Source: Synechococcus sp. CBW1004 (GTDB lineage: Bacteria > Cyanobacteriota > Cyanobacteriia > PCC-6307 > Cyanobiaceae). Taken from it: a DNA stretch of 64,000 bases. A program made the position numbers and the translations under genes. Under the pieces are notes generated by a model that made no database searches, was not told the DNA's origin, and saw only the letters and a program-made list of their open reading frames with translations. Where the stretch lies: NCBI RefSeq assembly GCF_015840715.1, contig NZ_CP060397.1, forward strand, positions 1,818,686 through 1,882,685, written 5' to 3'. Shown here piece after piece: positions 1,600 through 62,166 of the stretch. The number at the start of each line of letters is the position of its first letter. Position 1 is the stretch's first letter.

Positions 1600-3093
1600 A
1601 TGGGTGCGCTGCAGATCGGGCTCACGGCCCTGGCAGGGGCGGTTCTGCTGGTGTTCACGGCACTGGTCTGTCGTTCCCGCAGACTGCCGTCCCCGCCGTT
1701 GCGTCTGGGCCTGGTGGCGCTGGCCAGCTGGCTGTTGGTGGCCCTGGTGCCTGCGGCCCTGGTGCCGCTTCCCTATCGCCTCTGGCTGCAGATCAGCGAC
1801 GACCTGCTGTTCAGCTTCGCCGCCATCCGCCTGCTCATCTGGGCCTTGCTGGAGATCCCGGGCAGCTTGCGCTGGTGGCCGTCGCCGCCGGATCTGGTCA
1901 TCCAGCTGCTGTCGCTGGGGGGCTGGGCTGCGGCGACGGTCTTGGTGGTGCGCCAGACCGCCCGTTTCGATCTGATCAACCTGGTGGCCACCTCCGCCGT
2001 GCTCACCGCCGTGATCGGCCTGGCGGGGCAGGAGGCACTCAAGGATCTGTTCTCCGGTCTGGAGCTGAGGCTGGCGGACGACTTCGGCCTCGGCGACTGG
2101 CTGGAGCTCTCCGATGGACGGCACGGCATCGTCGTGGGCTTCAGCTGGCGCGAGACGCGTCTGCGCACGGTCGACGACTTCCTGCTGCTGGTGCCCAACA
2201 GTGAGATCACCGCTGCGGTTCTCACCAACCGCTCGAGCTTCGGAGCCTGCTGCGATCGCTTCGAGGTTGGCCTCGACTACGACTTCCCCCCCGGCAGGGC
2301 CCTGGCGCTGCTGCAGCAGGTGGTGCAGCAGCATCCGCTGGTGCTGGCCGATCCGCAGCCTCTCATCCGCGTCAAGGGCTTTCTCGACAGTTCGATCAGC
2401 TACGAGCTGCAGGTGTGGCAGAAGACCGTGGGGGAACGGGCCCGTCTGCAGCTGCGCAGCGAGCTCCTCCAGCAGATCTGGTATAGCGTCCATCGCCAGG
2501 GCCAGTCGTTCCCCTTCCCGGTGCGCGAGATGCGGCCGCGCCGCTCGGCGCTGCCATCGGAGCTGCTTCAACAGCCCACCCTGGAGGCCTGTCGCCTCGC
2601 CCTGGCCTCGGTGCCGATGTTCGCCGATCTGAGTGAGGAGGAGCTGCAACTGTTGGTGGCCGACAGCGGGCTGCTCACCTATGGGCCAGGCGAGGCGGTG
2701 GTGCGCGAGGGGGCCGAAGGGCAGTCCCTGTTCTGCCTCCTGCGCGGCCATGTGGAGGTGGTCAAGCAGCTCGAGGACGGCAGCCACGTGCGCGTGAGCG
2801 AGCTGCAGGCAGGCAATGTCTTCGGGGAGATGACGTTGTTTCTCGATGCTCCTCGCAGCGCCACGGTGCGCACCCTTGAGGAGTGCCAGTTGCTGCGCGT
2901 GGGCCGGCCGGCGGTGCGTCGTCTCCTGGACCTGAACCCGGCGCTCCTGGAGCGCCTCGCCGCCCTGGTGGATGCCCGTCAGGCGGAGCTCGCCCAGCTC
3001 GGGCGCGGGCAGGATCATGAACGCTCGCAGGGATTGCTCGAGACGATGCGACGCCTGTTCGGTGTCGTCAGCGGTGCCGCCGGCCTGGAGTGA
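1600..3093 (+). CDS. MscS-family mechanosensitive channel with C-terminal cyclic-nucleotide-binding domain
   Basis: About 497 residues. The N-terminal 135 residues contain four hydrophobic spans. These lead into the MscS pore and beta domain: GLAGQEALKDLFSGLEL (about 140-157), the DWLEL and GIVVGFSWRETRLRT strands, and VPNSEIT (about 196-203). From about residue 340 follows a cyclic-nucleotide-binding domain, with PMFADLSEEELQLL, GPGEAVVREG and the phosphate-binding cassette FGEMTLFLDAPRSATV including its Arg. It is an inner-membrane ion channel, probably for osmotic release, with gating modulated by cAMP or cGMP. A CHASE2-cyclase gene is 3.6 kb away. The start at 1600 begins just before the first membrane span; 1570 is an in-frame alternative. 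Confidence 0.88.
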   Translation: MGALQIGLTALAGAVLLVFTALVCRSRRLPSPPLRLGLVALASWLLVALVPAALVPLPYRLWLQISDDLLFSFAAIRLLIWALLEIPGSLRWWPSPPDLVIQLLSLGGWAAATVLVVRQTARFDLINLVATSAVLTAVIGLAGQEALKDLFSGLELRLADDFGLGDWLELSDGRHGIVVGFSWRETRLRTVDDFLLLVPNSEITAAVLTNRSSFGACCDRFEVGLDYDFPPGRALALLQQVVQQHPLVLADPQPLIRVKGFLDSSISYELQVWQKTVGERARLQLRSELLQQIWYSVHRQGQSFPFPVREMRPRRSALPSELLQQPTLEACRLALASVPMFADLSEEELQLLVADSGLLTYGPGEAVVREGAEGQSLFCLLRGHVEVVKQLEDGSHVRVSELQAGNVFGEMTLFLDAPRSATVRTLEECQLLRVGRPAVRRLLDLNPALLERLAALVDARQAELAQLGRGQDHERSQGLLETMRRLFGVVSGAAGLE

Positions 3094-3202
3094 ATCCCTG
3101 TGGAGGACGGGCCGAAGCGGCGTGCGCCTGAATCTGTCGAGAGGCCGGGCAGGCGGGTGACACCCCGCCCGCATGTTGTCTCGGCTCAGATCGCAGCGAC
3201 GA

Positions 3203-55696: not shown

Positions 55697-58600
55697 TCAG
55701 CCGGAGATGAGATCGAAGATGAGATCGACGATCAGGTCGTCGTGATCCTTGTCGCCACCCCCGAAGAGATCTTCAAAGCCCACCTTGTTAGGGGCGAGAA
55801 ACTTGAAGTGGTTGTAGCCATCGTCATTCGCCGCAGCGAAGCTGAAGAAGGTCTGGTTCGTGGTCAGCACGGTGCCATAGAGGGCGACGAGACCCTGATT
55901 GACCTCGTTGAACACGATCGCTTCCGAGGCCGATTGATCATCGGCACGCGACAGCTCGGTGTCGCTGACGCGGTTGCTCTCTGCAAGTGCAGCGGCTGCA
56001 TAGCCGGCATCGCCGGGCTTGTAGATGACTCCCGAAACAGCATCGCGAACATCGCCATTCTCGTTGAGAACCCTGTAGAAGCCGACACGAGAGCTGAAGT
56101 CGGCCTCTCGGGAGGCTGTGGCCTCGGCAGCCACGGCGCTGAAGCCCGTGGAAGCCAGATCGAGCAGGAAGGGGACATCCGGCCCCTGGTAGGCATCGAT
56201 GCCGGTGATGGCGTCGCTGTTCTGGGCCAGATTGCTGACGCGCAGAATCTGCCCACCCTCGACCAGGTTCTGGTCGTCGATGGAGCCTCCCTTGACCCCG
56301 TGGGCCTGGACGGTGAAGAAGAAGTCTGTGCCCGGAGTGTTTCCGTAGAGCGCGGAGACATCGATGATGCCGCTGCTCTCCCAGGCGCCGAGACTGCCGG
56401 CTTCCGTATCGGTCTGGCCGGCGGGGAGTGCGGCATCGCGGTTCATGACGAGGATGCGCTCGGCGTCACCGGAGGTGGCATTCACCTTCCAGATGGAGGC
56501 TTCCTTGCCCTCAAAGGGAGTGGAGCGATCTTCATTGACATAGATTTTGCCGTCAGCGGACCAGGCCAGGTTGTCCGGGCTGCGTACGCCCAGCTGCTGA
56601 TTGTCAGCAGCGTCACCGTCGTAGAGGTGCTTGAGGAGAGCAGTTGCCGGAGCGGTGCCATCGGCATTGAAGCTGACATCGAGAGTCCAGACCGAGCCGA
56701 ACTTGTCATCACCGGCCCTGTCATTCTTCCCGCCACCGGTGGTGTTGAAGGCGATCTGGCTGGGGTCGTTGGGGTTGAAATCCACGTCTTCCACCCGGTA
56801 GCCCATGAAGCCACCCCCGTTGAACACCTCGGTGCGGAGGGTGGGGGCGAGCTTGTAGCCCTGGTCGTCGTAGCCAGGCTGGCCGGCTTTGCTCACATCC
56901 TGAGCATCGATGGCCACCCAGGTGCCTGCATCGGTGCCACCTTCTGCCAGGCCATCCTCATTGCGAACGCCCGTCGTCGATTTCCAGTAGAAGAGCTGGC
57001 CGCCCACCAGGCCGTTGCGCTCGAGGACATTGCCATCGGCCTTCTTGGTGCCGACATAGAGATAGAGGGGAGCGCCTTCTCCGGCGGGACCGTCGTCACC
57101 GAGGAAGTAGGCCACGGTGTCGGTGCTGCCGGTGTCGACCATGGCGGCCGATTCCCAGCCGCCATAGGCCAGGTCGGGAGCGGCCCAGAGCTCACCCTCG
57201 TTGACATCGAGGATCCACATGGTGCCGTTGGTGAATTCCTCCCCCAGCAGGAACAGGCGATCGGCGGCCCCCTTGCCGGGCCCGAAGGTGTTTGCTTCCA
57301 CCAGGTTGGCGGAGCAGAAGCGGTTCAGGCCACCGACCGAGATGCCGGGACCGCGCACCTGAGCCTCGTCGGTGACGAGATCGCCGTTGCGGTCGTAGAT
57401 GGTGTCGTAGGCGAGGCCGCCACTGACCACCTGGCCGGCGTTGTTGACCTCGATGAAGTTGATGCGTGCGCCCTTGAGCTCGGCCCCACTGGCGAGCAGA
57501 TAGCTGTAGCCCTTGTCGTTGCCGATCTCGCTGTTGATCAGGATGCGGATGGTGTCGTCATCGACCCGATAGGCGCCCAGGCCATCGGGGATGCCGGTGG
57601 CCGTGAAGCCCGCGACGCTCTGACCGATGGTGTACAGGGACTCGACGGCATAACCAGGAGCGGAGGGCGTCATGAACGCCTCCACCGCCGGGGCAGCCGC
57701 AGAGGCGGCAACGATCTGCCCACCCTCGACCAGGTTCTGGTCGTCGATGGAGCCTCCCTTGACCCCGTGGGCCTGGACGGTGAAGAAGAAGTCTGTGCCC
57801 GGAGTGTTTCCGTAGAGCGCGGAGACATCGATGATGCCGCTGCTCTCCCAGGCGCCGAGACTGCCGGCTTCCGTATCGGTCTGGCCGGCGGGGAGTGCGG
57901 CATCGCGGTTCATGACGAGGATGCGCTCGGCGTCACCGGAGGTGGCATTCACCTTCCAGATGGAGGCTTCCTTGCCCTCAAAGGGAGTGGAGCGATCTTC
58001 ATTGACATAGATTTTGCCGTCAGCGGACCAGGCCAGGTTGTCCGGGCTGCGTACGCCCAGCTGCTGATTGTCAGCAGCGTCACCGTCGTAGAGGTGCTTG
58101 AGGAGAGCAGTTGCCGGAGCGGTGCCATCGGCATTGAAGCTGACATCGAGAGTCCAGACCGAGCCGAACTTGTCATCACCGGCCCTGTCATTCTTCCCGC
58201 CACCGGTGGTGTTGAAGGCGATCTGGCTGGGGTCGTTGGGGTTGAAATCCACGTCTTCCACCCGGTAGCCCATGAAGCCACCCCCGTTGAACACCTCGGT
58301 GCGGAGGGTGGGGGCGAGCTTGTAGCCCTGGTCGTCGTAGCCAGGCTGGCCGGCTTTGCTCACATCCTGAGCATCGATGGCCACCCAGGTGCCTGCATCG
58401 GTGCCACCTTCTGCCAGGCCATCCTCATTGCGAACGCCCGTCGTCGATTTCCAGTAGAAGAGCTGGCCGCCCACCAGGCCGTTGCGCTCGAGGACATTGC
58501 CATCGGCCTTCTTGGTGCCGACATAGAGATAGAGGGGAGCGCCTTCTCCGGCGGGACCGTCGTCACCGAGGAAGTAGGCCACGGTGTCGGTGCTGCCGGT

Positions 58601-61600
58601 GTCGACCATGGCGGCCGATTCCCAGCCGCCATAGGCCAGGTCGGGAGCGGCCCAGAGCTCACCCTCGTTGACATCGAGGATCCACATGGTGCCGTTGGTG
58701 AATTCCTCCCCCAGCAGGAACAGGCGATCGGCGGCCCCCTTGCCGGGCCCGAAGGTGTTTGCTTCCACCAGGTTGGCGGAGCAGAAGCGGTTCAGGCCAC
58801 CGACCGAGATGCCGGGACCGCGCACCTGAGCCTCGTCGGTGACGAGATCGCCGTTGCGGTCGTAGATGGTGTCGTAGGCGAGGCCGCCACTGACCACCTG
58901 GCCGGCGTTGTTGACCTCGATGAAGTTGATGCGTGCGCCCTTGAGCTCGGCCCCACTGGCGAGCAGATAGCTGTAGCCCTTGTCGTTGCCGATCTCGCTG
59001 TTGATCAGGATGCGGATGGTGTCGTCATCGACCCGATAGGCGCCCAGGCCATCGGGGATGCCGGTGATCCTGCCGGTATCACCACCCCCAATTGTGTAGA
59101 GCGCTTCGGTGCGGAAGCCGCTACCCGACACCGGCAGCATCATCTCGGGCAGTGTGCCGCCGTTGAACTGGTTCTGGTCAGCGGCGGAGCGCACATCGCC
59201 GAAGCGGAAGAACTCGAGTGTGCCTGAGACTTCATTGGCGACCATCAGATAGCCGGTGCCTGACTGGTCGTCACGGATGAACTTCACACCCTCCGGTGAG
59301 ATCGAGGACTGTGACTGAAGCGCCTGCACATAGACCGGCTGGTAGGGATCGGTGATGTCATAGGCCAACACGGTTGAGGTGGTGCCCCGTTCAAGGCCCA
59401 TGAAGGCATAGCGGCGCCCGTTGATCACCTGGGTGGTCACCATCTCGGGCTCGGTGCCCTTGTCGTCGCTGCGGCCTTCGTCGTAGATGCCAAGCTGCTT
59501 GGCGATTTCTTCCAGCTGGTTCCCCGAATCAAAGATCAGATTCTGGTTCTGGTCGTAGATGCGGAAGCTGCGGCTGCCGAAGGCATAGGCCTGGTCGAGC
59601 ACACCATCCCCGTCATAATCACCATCGGTGTTCGACAGATTCAGACGGCTGCCGAGGTTGGCGGTGTCGGCGCCATTGAGACTCCCGGCCCGGGTCTTGT
59701 CGGGGGTGCTGATGCTGTTGGGATCATCGCCAGCGCGATCGTCTCCTTCGCCCACCACGATGATGAAGGTCTCGCCGCCCTGGCTGAAGGCATCAAGGCC
59801 GTCGGCCATGGTGAGGCCGTACAGCTTGCGGACGGCGATGTCATCCGTCTGGCCGTCCCTGTCGTTCGTGTCGATCGGGGTCGGAATGAAGCGCACTTCG
59901 GTGAGGACGTTGTCGGCGCGATCGGCCACCTTGATGAAGTCGTTGTCGAAGCCGAACACGAGCGAGCCATCGGGCTTGAGGGCGAGCCCTTCGGCCTTGT
60001 CGAAGGCAGGATCCGCTCCGCGGACGCTGGGGAGATTGAACAGCTCCTCGCGGCGTGCCATCTGAATGCCCTGGCTGTCCAGCAGATCGGCGATGCTGCC
60101 GAATGGCGTGGTCTTGAGGTCCACCAGCTCCGGTTGGGTGCTTCCACCCAGCACATCAGCCCAGTTTTTGCCGTTCTGGGCCAGCGTGTAATCGAGAGTG
60201 TCTGTGGCGCCTTTGAGATTGATTTCCGTGATCGACTTGTTCGCCGTGGCGCCGAGTTCACTGTCGCGCTCAATGACGAGAAACACATCGCGCTCGGCGT
60301 CATAGACCGCATCACCGATCTTGTCCTGACCGGCCTCGATCGGCAGCAGGCTCAGGTATTCGTGCACAGGCTCGCCGCTCAGGGGGTTGATGGCGAGGAT
60401 GCGGATGAATTCCTTGTTGTTGTAGCCATCCGGGCGCAGAGGGCTCTGTACGAAGGCGTAGAGCAGGCCATCGTTGGGATTGAAGGCCATCCCCTCGAAG
60501 CCGCGGTTCGCCTGGCGATCGCCGTAAACCGCCGGCAGCGAGAAGGTGGTGTAGCCAGCCACATCACCGCGGCCTGCGGCGTAATCGCTGGGATTGAAAA
60601 CAGTGTTGCTGGCAACGAAGCGCTGGATCAGGTTGCCCGTGCTTGCATCGAACAGAGCCACCTGAGGGCGGTATTCGTCGGAGACGGCGAATACCGGATT
60701 GCCGCCATTGAGACCGGGCAGCGTGAATGCGTTGATCGACTCGGTGTCCAGGCCGAAGGCATCCCAGCCCACCTGTTCGTAGACGTTGTACTGGTTGGGG
60801 TCACCGGCGATGCCGTTGCCGGCCGTCTTCAGAGCGAAGGCCTTGTCGTCGGTGCCGGGCAGTTCGCCGATGCCGGTGGCCAGACGGAAGCCGCCGTTGC
60901 CGTCGGGCACTTTCAGGCTGATGGTGTCGACCACCGTGACAACGCCGTCGTTGTTGGCCAGGCGGTAGACCGTCGGCGCGAAGTCGGGATCGTCGAAGAT
61001 CTTCTCGCCTCTGTTCGGATCGTTCGGGTTGTCATTGGGGCGATCGCCGATGTTCGCGGCCTGGGGGCCGCGATCGCTGATCGTGAGGTAAAACTCGCTT
61101 GTTCCCTCTTTGCCCTCGTACCACAGACCGGAGAGGCCGCCGGCGATCACTTCACCGGCCTCAACGGTTCCGTTGCCATTGAAATCGGGGCGGGTGCCGG
61201 TGTAGGCGAGATCAAAGGCGTAGTTGCTGGCCTCGGGGGTGCCGCGGCTCCAGTCCTTGATCCCGAGACTCCAGATGTCGCTGAGCTTGCCGCTGGCCAG
61301 ATCCACCTCGGCGATGGCGTTGTTCTCCTGCAATGTCACGTAGGCCTTGTTGCCCACGATTGCGATGGCTTCCGGCTCAAAATCCTGGGCGGCGGTGGCT
61401 CCGGGAGTGCCTTCATTCAGGCGGATGCCCAGCAGACCCAGCTTCACCTTCTGATTGTTGTAGGCCTCAAAGCCCAGCGTGGTGACAGCAAAACCATTGG
61501 CGTCGGTGGTGGCTGCCGTGAAGCTGCTCACGTCGATCAGGGAGATCGAACCCACCGCATCGGTGGTGGTGCTGTCGATCGCTTCGCCTTCGTTGGCCAC

Positions 61601-61978
61601 CACAAGCCTGGTGCCGGCGGCATTGAATGCCACCGAATCCGGCAGGGCACCCACCTTCACCTCCCCGAGTGCCGTGAGGGTCGTCTGTTCACCGGTGCCG
61701 GACAGGCGCAGGAACAGGATGCTGCCTTCCTCGGCCTTGTCAGTCGGGTTCACCAGGGCCACCGCCACCAGATCACCGCTCACGGCAACGCTCTGGGCGG
61801 CAGCGGGAAGCGCGAACGCGCTCAGCAGCTGTGGATTGCTGATGGAGCTGAGGTTGACAAGTCGCAGGCTGTTGTCGCCACCGGTGACCAGGGCAACGGC
61901 ATGCTCTGAAGAGAACGTGGCGATTTCTGCTCCACCCAGATCGATGCTGGAGAGAGGGCCTGTGGTCAGCGCAGACAT
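55697..61978 (-). CDS. Giant secreted phosphatase/phytase-like protein with duplicated PhoX-type module
   Basis: 2,093 residues. Part 1 (about 1-180) is the first half of a choice-of-anchor-I propeller (SVAVSGDLVAVALVNP, LPDSVAFNAAGTRLVVANEGEA). Part 2 (about 255-800) is an esterase-like phytase domain (YEGKEGTSEFYLTISDRGPQ, GFEGMAFNPNDGLLYAFVQ, KAEGLALKPDGSLVFGFDND). Part 3 (about 860-955) looks like the propeller's other half (TEPEMVTTQVINGRRYAFMGLER, SPEGVKFI). Parts 4 and 5 (about 971-1422 and 1460-1911) are two identical PhoX/DUF839-like modules, each with GLNRFCSANLVEANTF and NRDGDxx-like Asp-rich loops. A C-terminal DUF4114 domain (DDGYNHFKF, VGFEDLFGGGDKDHDDLIVDL) ends the chain. Calcium-binding Asp-rich loops occur (DFNGNGTVEAGEV, DGDYDGDGVLD). 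No N-terminal signal peptide is present, which with DUF4114 points to type I secretion. Likely role: hydrolysis of organic phosphate outside the cell, probably under Pho control. Confidence 0.88.
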   Translation of the reverse strand: MSALTTGPLSSIDLGGAEIATFSSEHAVALVTGGDNSLRLVNLSSISNPQLLSAFALPAAAQSVAVSGDLVAVALVNPTDKAEEGSILFLRLSGTGEQTTLTALGEVKVGALPDSVAFNAAGTRLVVANEGEAIDSTTTDAVGSISLIDVSSFTAATTDANGFAVTTLGFEAYNNQKVKLGLLGIRLNEGTPGATAAQDFEPEAIAIVGNKAYVTLQENNAIAEVDLASGKLSDIWSLGIKDWSRGTPEASNYAFDLAYTGTRPDFNGNGTVEAGEVIAGGLSGLWYEGKEGTSEFYLTISDRGPQAANIGDRPNDNPNDPNRGEKIFDDPDFAPTVYRLANNDGVVTVVDTISLKVPDGNGGFRLATGIGELPGTDDKAFALKTAGNGIAGDPNQYNVYEQVGWDAFGLDTESINAFTLPGLNGGNPVFAVSDEYRPQVALFDASTGNLIQRFVASNTVFNPSDYAAGRGDVAGYTTFSLPAVYGDRQANRGFEGMAFNPNDGLLYAFVQSPLRPDGYNNKEFIRILAINPLSGEPVHEYLSLLPIEAGQDKIGDAVYDAERDVFLVIERDSELGATANKSITEINLKGATDTLDYTLAQNGKNWADVLGGSTQPELVDLKTTPFGSIADLLDSQGIQMARREELFNLPSVRGADPAFDKAEGLALKPDGSLVFGFDNDFIKVADRADNVLTEVRFIPTPIDTNDRDGQTDDIAVRKLYGLTMADGLDAFSQGGETFIIVVGEGDDRAGDDPNSISTPDKTRAGSLNGADTANLGSRLNLSNTDGDYDGDGVLDQAYAFGSRSFRIYDQNQNLIFDSGNQLEEIAKQLGIYDEGRSDDKGTEPEMVTTQVINGRRYAFMGLERGTTSTVLAYDITDPYQPVYVQALQSQSSISPEGVKFIRDDQSGTGYLMVANEVSGTLEFFRFGDVRSAADQNQFNGGTLPEMMLPVSGSGFRTEALYTIGGGDTGRITGIPDGLGAYRVDDDTIRILINSEIGNDKGYSYLLASGAELKGARINFIEVNNAGQVVSGGLAYDTIYDRNGDLVTDEAQVRGPGISVGGLNRFCSANLVEANTFGPGKGAADRLFLLGEEFTNGTMWILDVNEGELWAAPDLAYGGWESAAMVDTGSTDTVAYFLGDDGPAGEGAPLYLYVGTKKADGNVLERNGLVGGQLFYWKSTTGVRNEDGLAEGGTDAGTWVAIDAQDVSKAGQPGYDDQGYKLAPTLRTEVFNGGGFMGYRVEDVDFNPNDPSQIAFNTTGGGKNDRAGDDKFGSVWTLDVSFNADGTAPATALLKHLYDGDAADNQQLGVRSPDNLAWSADGKIYVNEDRSTPFEGKEASIWKVNATSGDAERILVMNRDAALPAGQTDTEAGSLGAWESSGIIDVSALYGNTPGTDFFFTVQAHGVKGGSIDDQNLVEGGQIVAASAAAPAVEAFMTPSAPGYAVESLYTIGQSVAGFTATGIPDGLGAYRVDDDTIRILINSEIGNDKGYSYLLASGAELKGARINFIEVNNAGQVVSGGLAYDTIYDRNGDLVTDEAQVRGPGISVGGLNRFCSANLVEANTFGPGKGAADRLFLLGEEFTNGTMWILDVNEGELWAAPDLAYGGWESAAMVDTGSTDTVAYFLGDDGPAGEGAPLYLYVGTKKADGNVLERNGLVGGQLFYWKSTTGVRNEDGLAEGGTDAGTWVAIDAQDVSKAGQPGYDDQGYKLAPTLRTEVFNGGGFMGYRVEDVDFNPNDPSQIAFNTTGGGKNDRAGDDKFGSVWTLDVSFNADGTAPATALLKHLYDGDAADNQQLGVRSPDNLAWSADGKIYVNEDRSTPFEGKEASIWKVNATSGDAERILVMNRDAALPAGQTDTEAGSLGAWESSGIIDVSALYGNTPGTDFFFTVQAHGVKGGSIDDQNLVEGGQILRVSNLAQNSDAITGIDAYQGPDVPFLLDLASTGFSAVAAEATASREADFSSRVGFYRVLNENGDVRDAVSGVIYKPGDAGYAAAALAESNRVSDTELSRADDQSASEAIVFNEVNQGLVALYGTVLTTNQTFFSFAAANDDGYNHFKFLAPNKVGFEDLFGGGDKDHDDLIVDLIFDLISG
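56248..57599 (-). repeat. 1,352-bp direct repeat, copy coding the second PhoX-like module
   Basis: This block matches 57715-59066 with a constant offset of 1,467 bp. Translations in the sense frame and in other frames are identical across both copies, so the DNA is identical or nearly so. It codes residues about 1460-1911. A 115-bp unique spacer (57600-57714) separates the copies. Confidence 0.92.
57715..59066 (-). repeat. 1,352-bp direct repeat, copy coding the first PhoX-like module
   Basis: The partner of 56248-57599, coding residues about 971-1422. Identity ends abruptly on both sides (at the codons after GGQI and before TGIPDG), as expected for a recent in-frame tandem duplication. Confidence 0.92.
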
Positions 61979-62079
61979 GCCGGATTGAGCAAATCTCTTT
62001 CAGGCTGCCGAGCGCTGCGCCGCATGCATGACTGCCCCGACACCAGCACGATGTGTCGGGCGGCACCACGCCATGTCCG

Positions 62080-62109
62080 TGGTTATCGGGGGATTAACTT
62101 CCGGCTAAC
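62080..62109 (-). promoter_or_regulatory. Pho-box-like triple repeat upstream of the giant gene
   Basis: On the minus strand three octamers, GTTAGCCG, GTTAATCC and GATAACCA, are separated by 3 bp each (GAA, CCC), an exact 11-bp period. Cyanobacterial PhoB (SphR) sites are such direct repeats of PyTTAAPyPy(T/A) with 3-bp gaps. The cores match loosely, two of three well. The site lies 102-131 bp upstream of the ATG at 61978. It suggests induction by phosphate shortage. Confidence 0.5.
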
Positions 62110-62166
62110 GATTGATTTGGTCTGGGAGAGTTCATCGCATGTGGCTTCACCTGTCTTGTCCTTTCT

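Follow-up and report, generated by a model that had tools for sequence, protein, structure and literature searches.

The window analysed here is the whole stretch of 64,000 nucleotides. It contains on the minus strand a giant open reading frame of 2093 aa, separated by a gap of 188 bp from a 2OG-Fe(II) oxygenase-like gene upstream on the same strand. This gap carries an array of short direct repeats ahead of the giant gene, and the array is the subject of the present report (Table 1).

Table 1. Positions of the genes, domains and sequence elements considered, in window coordinates
Feature	Position	Strand	Remarks
Giant ORF, 2093 aa	55697..61978	-	choice-of-anchor I, interrupted by a phytase-like domain; then two PhoX-like modules and, at the C-terminus, a DUF4114-like region
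PhoX match (PF05787), aa 1120-1332	57983..58621	-	first of two modules; profile positions 240-451
Phytase-like domain (PF13449), aa 280-681	59936..61141	-	Pfam 104.6 bits, cut-off 27.6
Intergenic region	61979..62166	-	188 bp, from the 2OG-Fe(II) oxygenase-like gene (upstream, same strand) to the giant gene
GTG-N8-CAC palindrome	62053..62066	.	between the boxes and the giant gene; GTG-N8-CAC (L019) and GTG-N8-TAC (L018) at the aligned place
Pho box 3	62080..62087	-	GATAACCA; gene-proximal, end 101 bp from the ATG
Pho box 2	62091..62098	-	GTTAATCC; best single box, 6.9 bits
Pho box 1	62102..62109	-	GTTAGCCG
Weaker fourth box	62113..62120	-	CCAAATCA; distal, in register; four-box score 17.7, the best of the window

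Results

The first-pass annotation ascribed phosphate-releasing domains to the giant gene. At the level of family matches this holds, for the Phytase-like domain (104.6 bits) and for PhoX (49.7 bits, cut-off 24), the latter match covering only profile positions 240-451 of 515. Pfam places choice-of-anchor I in two stretches of the protein and PhoX also in two; the DUF4114 match is sub-threshold, and no signal peptide is visible by eye at the N-terminus. The structure model of one PhoX-like module is of low confidence (pLDDT 50.7); it matches PDB structures, many propeller proteins among them, with low TM-scores only, and we place no weight on these matches; a PDB sequence search returned no match. 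Compared with the genome's own PhoX (L084), the module gives a weak local profile match. We presume an enzyme activity of the giant protein from the family names.

A perfect direct repeat of 1353 bp (57714-59066 and 56247-57599) duplicates the PhoX-like module; it may originate from a recent duplication, gene conversion or an assembly error. The contigs of the closest orthologues stop near the end of the first module (L018) or inside it (L019), as repeats in these relatives would cause. In some other homologues (L029, 9855-11159; L063, 3304-4632) the PhoX-like stretch lies inside the N-terminal phytase-like/choice-of-anchor region and not after it, which may point to domain shuffling.

The array reads GTTAGCCG-gaa-GTTAATCC-ccc-GATAACCA on the minus strand, 5' to 3' from 62109 to 62080. 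These are three octamers on the gene's own strand with starts exactly 11 bp apart, and the array lies 101 bp upstream of the ATG of the ORF at 55697-61978. The octamers and their spacing are thus as first described. The cores had been given as TTA(A/G)(C/T)C-like, and this requires a correction, since the third one is ATAACC; also, a weaker fourth box, CCAAATCA (62120-62113), precedes the three in the same register, one step upstream.

The first-pass annotation compared the repeats to the PhoB boxes of cyanobacteria and proposed that they be scored by a matrix and sought upstream of orthologues. Our matrix was built from the 27 distinct three-box sites in Table 1 of Su et al. 2007 (PMC1906773). 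With this matrix the site ranks first in the 64-kb window, both strands considered, among two-, three- and four-box sites. Its score is 16.5 or 14.9 depending on whether the background is the window's own base composition or a rounded composition; the two values refer to one site. The score of 16.5 is near the bottom of the range of the 27 published sites (15.5-36.4), and it departs from the full published P-box at 7 positions. In sequence simulated at the window's size by a first-order Markov model, 0.025 sites reach this score (one over 40 simulations); mononucleotide shuffling of the 188-bp gap attains it in 19 of 4000 trials. Among the upstream regions of 46 ORFs in the window, that of the giant gene scores 14.9 and the runner-up 0.3. 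The same value of 14.9 is obtained at the 11-bp period, versus at most 1.9 when any other period between 7 and 15 is used. With three boxes the plus strand scores nearly as high as the minus strand (15.5 and 16.5), an effect of the almost palindromic TTAA core; in the four-box comparison the minus strand scores 17.7 and the plus strand 14.1. Taken together, three or more direct repeats of 8 bp, set apart by 3-bp linkers and ranking first in 64 kb, support the proposed likeness.

Similar boxes, GTTAATCG-gct-CTTATCCG-ctc-CATAACCT, precede the gene in both closest orthologues (L018 and L019, 82-83% identity); they end 107 bp before the ATG and score 21.3 versus 14.9 in the window. Aligned with these two sequences, the window is 63% identical over the 30-bp block and 78% over the 6-bp cores, whereas flanks of 60 columns reach 37% on the upstream and 42% on the downstream side. 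In all 12 more distant homologues from a genome-contig search, the best triple of the whole locus lies no farther than 300 bp from the start.

The latter test was extended to 32 loci, the window included, and 29 of them have their best locus-wide 11-bp triple no more than 300 bp from the chosen start (0.67 are expected from length alone). At periods from 8 to 15 other than 11, only 3-10 loci succeed, and with 20 column-permuted matrices 4-20 loci do. The failing loci are L059, L060 and L061, and the successes include weak scores, such as 4.3 (L058) and 8.1 (L066). Since the loci are interrelated, the first 15 representing about five sequence types, such counts are not counts of independent events. 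They cover the matches for which a locus was returned, after eight duplicate loci were dropped and L071, L073, L074 and L075 excluded as matches lacking the N-terminus. The starts were picked by hand from in-frame candidates, since the automatic ones (longest ORF or match start) missed some real starts; this choice made L057 a success, and also L068, L069 and L070 relative to one of the two automatic counts. Of 86 control ORF upstream regions in 14 of these loci, one attains 14.9, and it is located in the AT-richer L020.

Elsewhere in the genome, a pstS gene (PBP_like_2) is preceded at a distance of 53 bp by the similar boxes CTTGAGCA-agc-CTTAAACG-cct-CCTAACGA. The gene after it belongs to the CRP family and has four boxes ahead of it: CTTATCCC-cgc-CTTAACCA-cct-GTTGATCG-tgc-CTTGATTG. 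It is followed by the ORF at 3558316, which encodes a response regulator with RegX3 as its top PDB match, and by an ORF that looks histidine kinase-like by eye. The regulator, two genes after pstS, is of the SphR type and matches the PhoB model at 224 bits; this is under the NCBI equivalog cut-off of 296, which is passed by only 2 of 12 control genomes with a match. The PhoB model has 17 matches in the genome. No such boxes are present directly upstream of two further pstS-type genes or upstream of the classical PhoX gene (L084).

The literature core TTAAYY taken three times, with at most two mismatches, picks out only three separate places in the whole genome of 3.67 Mb: the window site, position 3557518 at the CRP-family gene, and the interior of a coding ORF near 2309086. 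With at most three mismatches there are 8 matches versus 7 for the reversed control, and a pattern fitted to the site gives 14 versus 18, again at most three mismatches, i.e., no excess in either case. We therefore draw no support from the genome-wide counts and use only the identity of the best places. The triple shifted to include the fourth box CCAAATCA was also recovered in these scans. One strong triple of this kind (26.2), at 3086-3115 of locus L079, lies within an AT-rich glycosyltransferase-like ORF of 653 aa, probably by chance.

Discussion

The SphR Pho boxes of Synechocystis PCC 6803, described for sphX, pstS and phoA-nucH, are built of at least three 8-bp repeats joined by 3-bp linkers and have the consensus CTTAACCT (PMC1906773). 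The window site resembles them in the 8-bp boxes, the 3-bp linkers, the TTAAYC core, the copy number of three or more and the position before phosphate-acquisition genes. It differs in having G for C/T at box position 1, one ATAACC and one TTAGCC core, GC-rich linkers and a lower matrix score. Table 1 of the same paper also gives predicted Pho boxes before alkaline phosphatase genes, namely phoA of PCC 7942 and SYNW2391-SYNW2390 of WH8102; the likeness concerns this arrangement. Our literature search, in which papers were mostly judged by title, found no title describing Pho boxes for the giant-gene family in Cyanobium.

Nodularia spumigena responds to phosphate depletion by strongly inducing NSP_RS03145, a phytase-like “atypical alkaline phosphatase”, with log2 values of 5.53 and 3.82 (PMC9846622). 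The giant protein shares with it a phytase-like domain by name only; the giant gene has boxes, whereas for strain CCY9414 the absence of a conserved P-box is reported (PMC9846622). A locus from a Nodularia-labelled MAG (L020, 7740-7940) nonetheless has four clear Pho boxes, then an AT-rich -10-like stretch, before a phytase-like homologue.

We believe that the repeats are very probably a binding site of SphR, the cyanobacterial PhoB; the observation itself is right, and this interpretation of it is well supported. Under phosphate scarcity an SphS-type kinase would phosphorylate the SphR-type regulator, which would bind the 11-bp repeats head to tail, one box per turn and on one face of the DNA. 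The bound regulator would recruit RNA polymerase and start transcription leftward into the giant gene, whose product would free phosphate from organic phosphorus. Exhaustion of phosphate is thus the probable signal that turns the giant gene on. Sites of this kind are well known: the switch is ordinary and the gene is unusual.

That the repeats are functionless, being AT-rich sequence met by chance within a GC-rich gap, is scarcely credible to us. Some shuffles of the gap do attain the score, as noted above; against chance stand the recurrence of the boxes before the homologues, in 29 of the 32 loci, and the similar boxes at pstS. Another regulator of the OmpR/PhoB class could use the repeats instead, e.g., RpaB at HLR1 sites, and the 17 matches of the PhoB model indicate that the genome has several such regulators. 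We regard this as very improbable, considering that the 11-bp period and the TTAAYC cores suit a Pho site, and that the HLR1 consensus fits the gap best with 6 mismatches, away from the boxes, and next best with 7 mismatches, overlapping the boxes on the other strand. The HLR1/RpaB, NtcA and CRP consensus patterns were all tried on the gap, and none fits the boxes.

The promoter presents more difficulty. In E. coli the -10 element is about 10 bp downstream of the Pho boxes (PMC1906773), and in L018 and L019 a TACAAT follows 6 bp after the last box. This hexamer is replaced at the aligned place in the window, and no sigma-70-type promoter match was found in the 188-bp gap (61979-62166), so the promoter of the window may be weak or start elsewhere. 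One could propose from this, and from the score of 14.9 below the orthologues' 21.3, that the site is decayed: used in an ancestor, with the adjacent promoter lost in this lineage and the gene now regulated weakly or differently. We consider this quite improbable, because the box cores are better kept than their flanks, and an obvious -10 at that place is also lacking by eye in other strong-box homologues and, within this genome, at pstS and the CRP-family gene. The rule is one for E. coli, and the missing -10 lowers confidence in the exact promoter and not in the box array.

A CRP-family regulator similar to PtrA could act together with the boxes or be the main control, which would place the gene in a second tier of the starvation response. 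Such a cascade is described for marine Synechococcus, where ptrA is under PhoBR and PtrA in turn controls phosphatases (PMC11098088). The CRP-family gene of the present genome adjoins the SphR-like regulator and is itself preceded by four boxes, and the palindrome downstream of the array (Table 1), aligned across the window, L018 and L019, is a possible CRP-family site. Nevertheless, only six bases of this palindrome are fixed, the DNA is GC-rich, and the three aligned sequences include two close relatives; the E. coli CRP consensus fits it with three mismatches. We presume that such control is decidedly unlikely and retain direct binding of SphR to the repeats as the preferred explanation.

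In a general biological context, we can outline a broader proposal, although it is unlikely to be correct in all its parts. Freshwater picocyanobacteria would possess a family of giant multi-domain enzymes for organic phosphorus, with no signal peptide visible by eye, wholly under direct SphR control. The 11-bp array would be kept while the box sequence, the distance to the gene and the -10 vary; the closest relatives would carry an additional CRP-family (PtrA-like) site, and a single promoter would thereby integrate starvation signals of the first and the second tier.

A search by the strict consensus would miss the window site, with its 7 departures from the full P-box; our observation extends the published description of cyanobacterial Pho boxes to a GC-rich genome. 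It also offers a likely trigger, phosphate starvation, for a huge gene of unproven function and for its homologues in freshwater picocyanobacteria.
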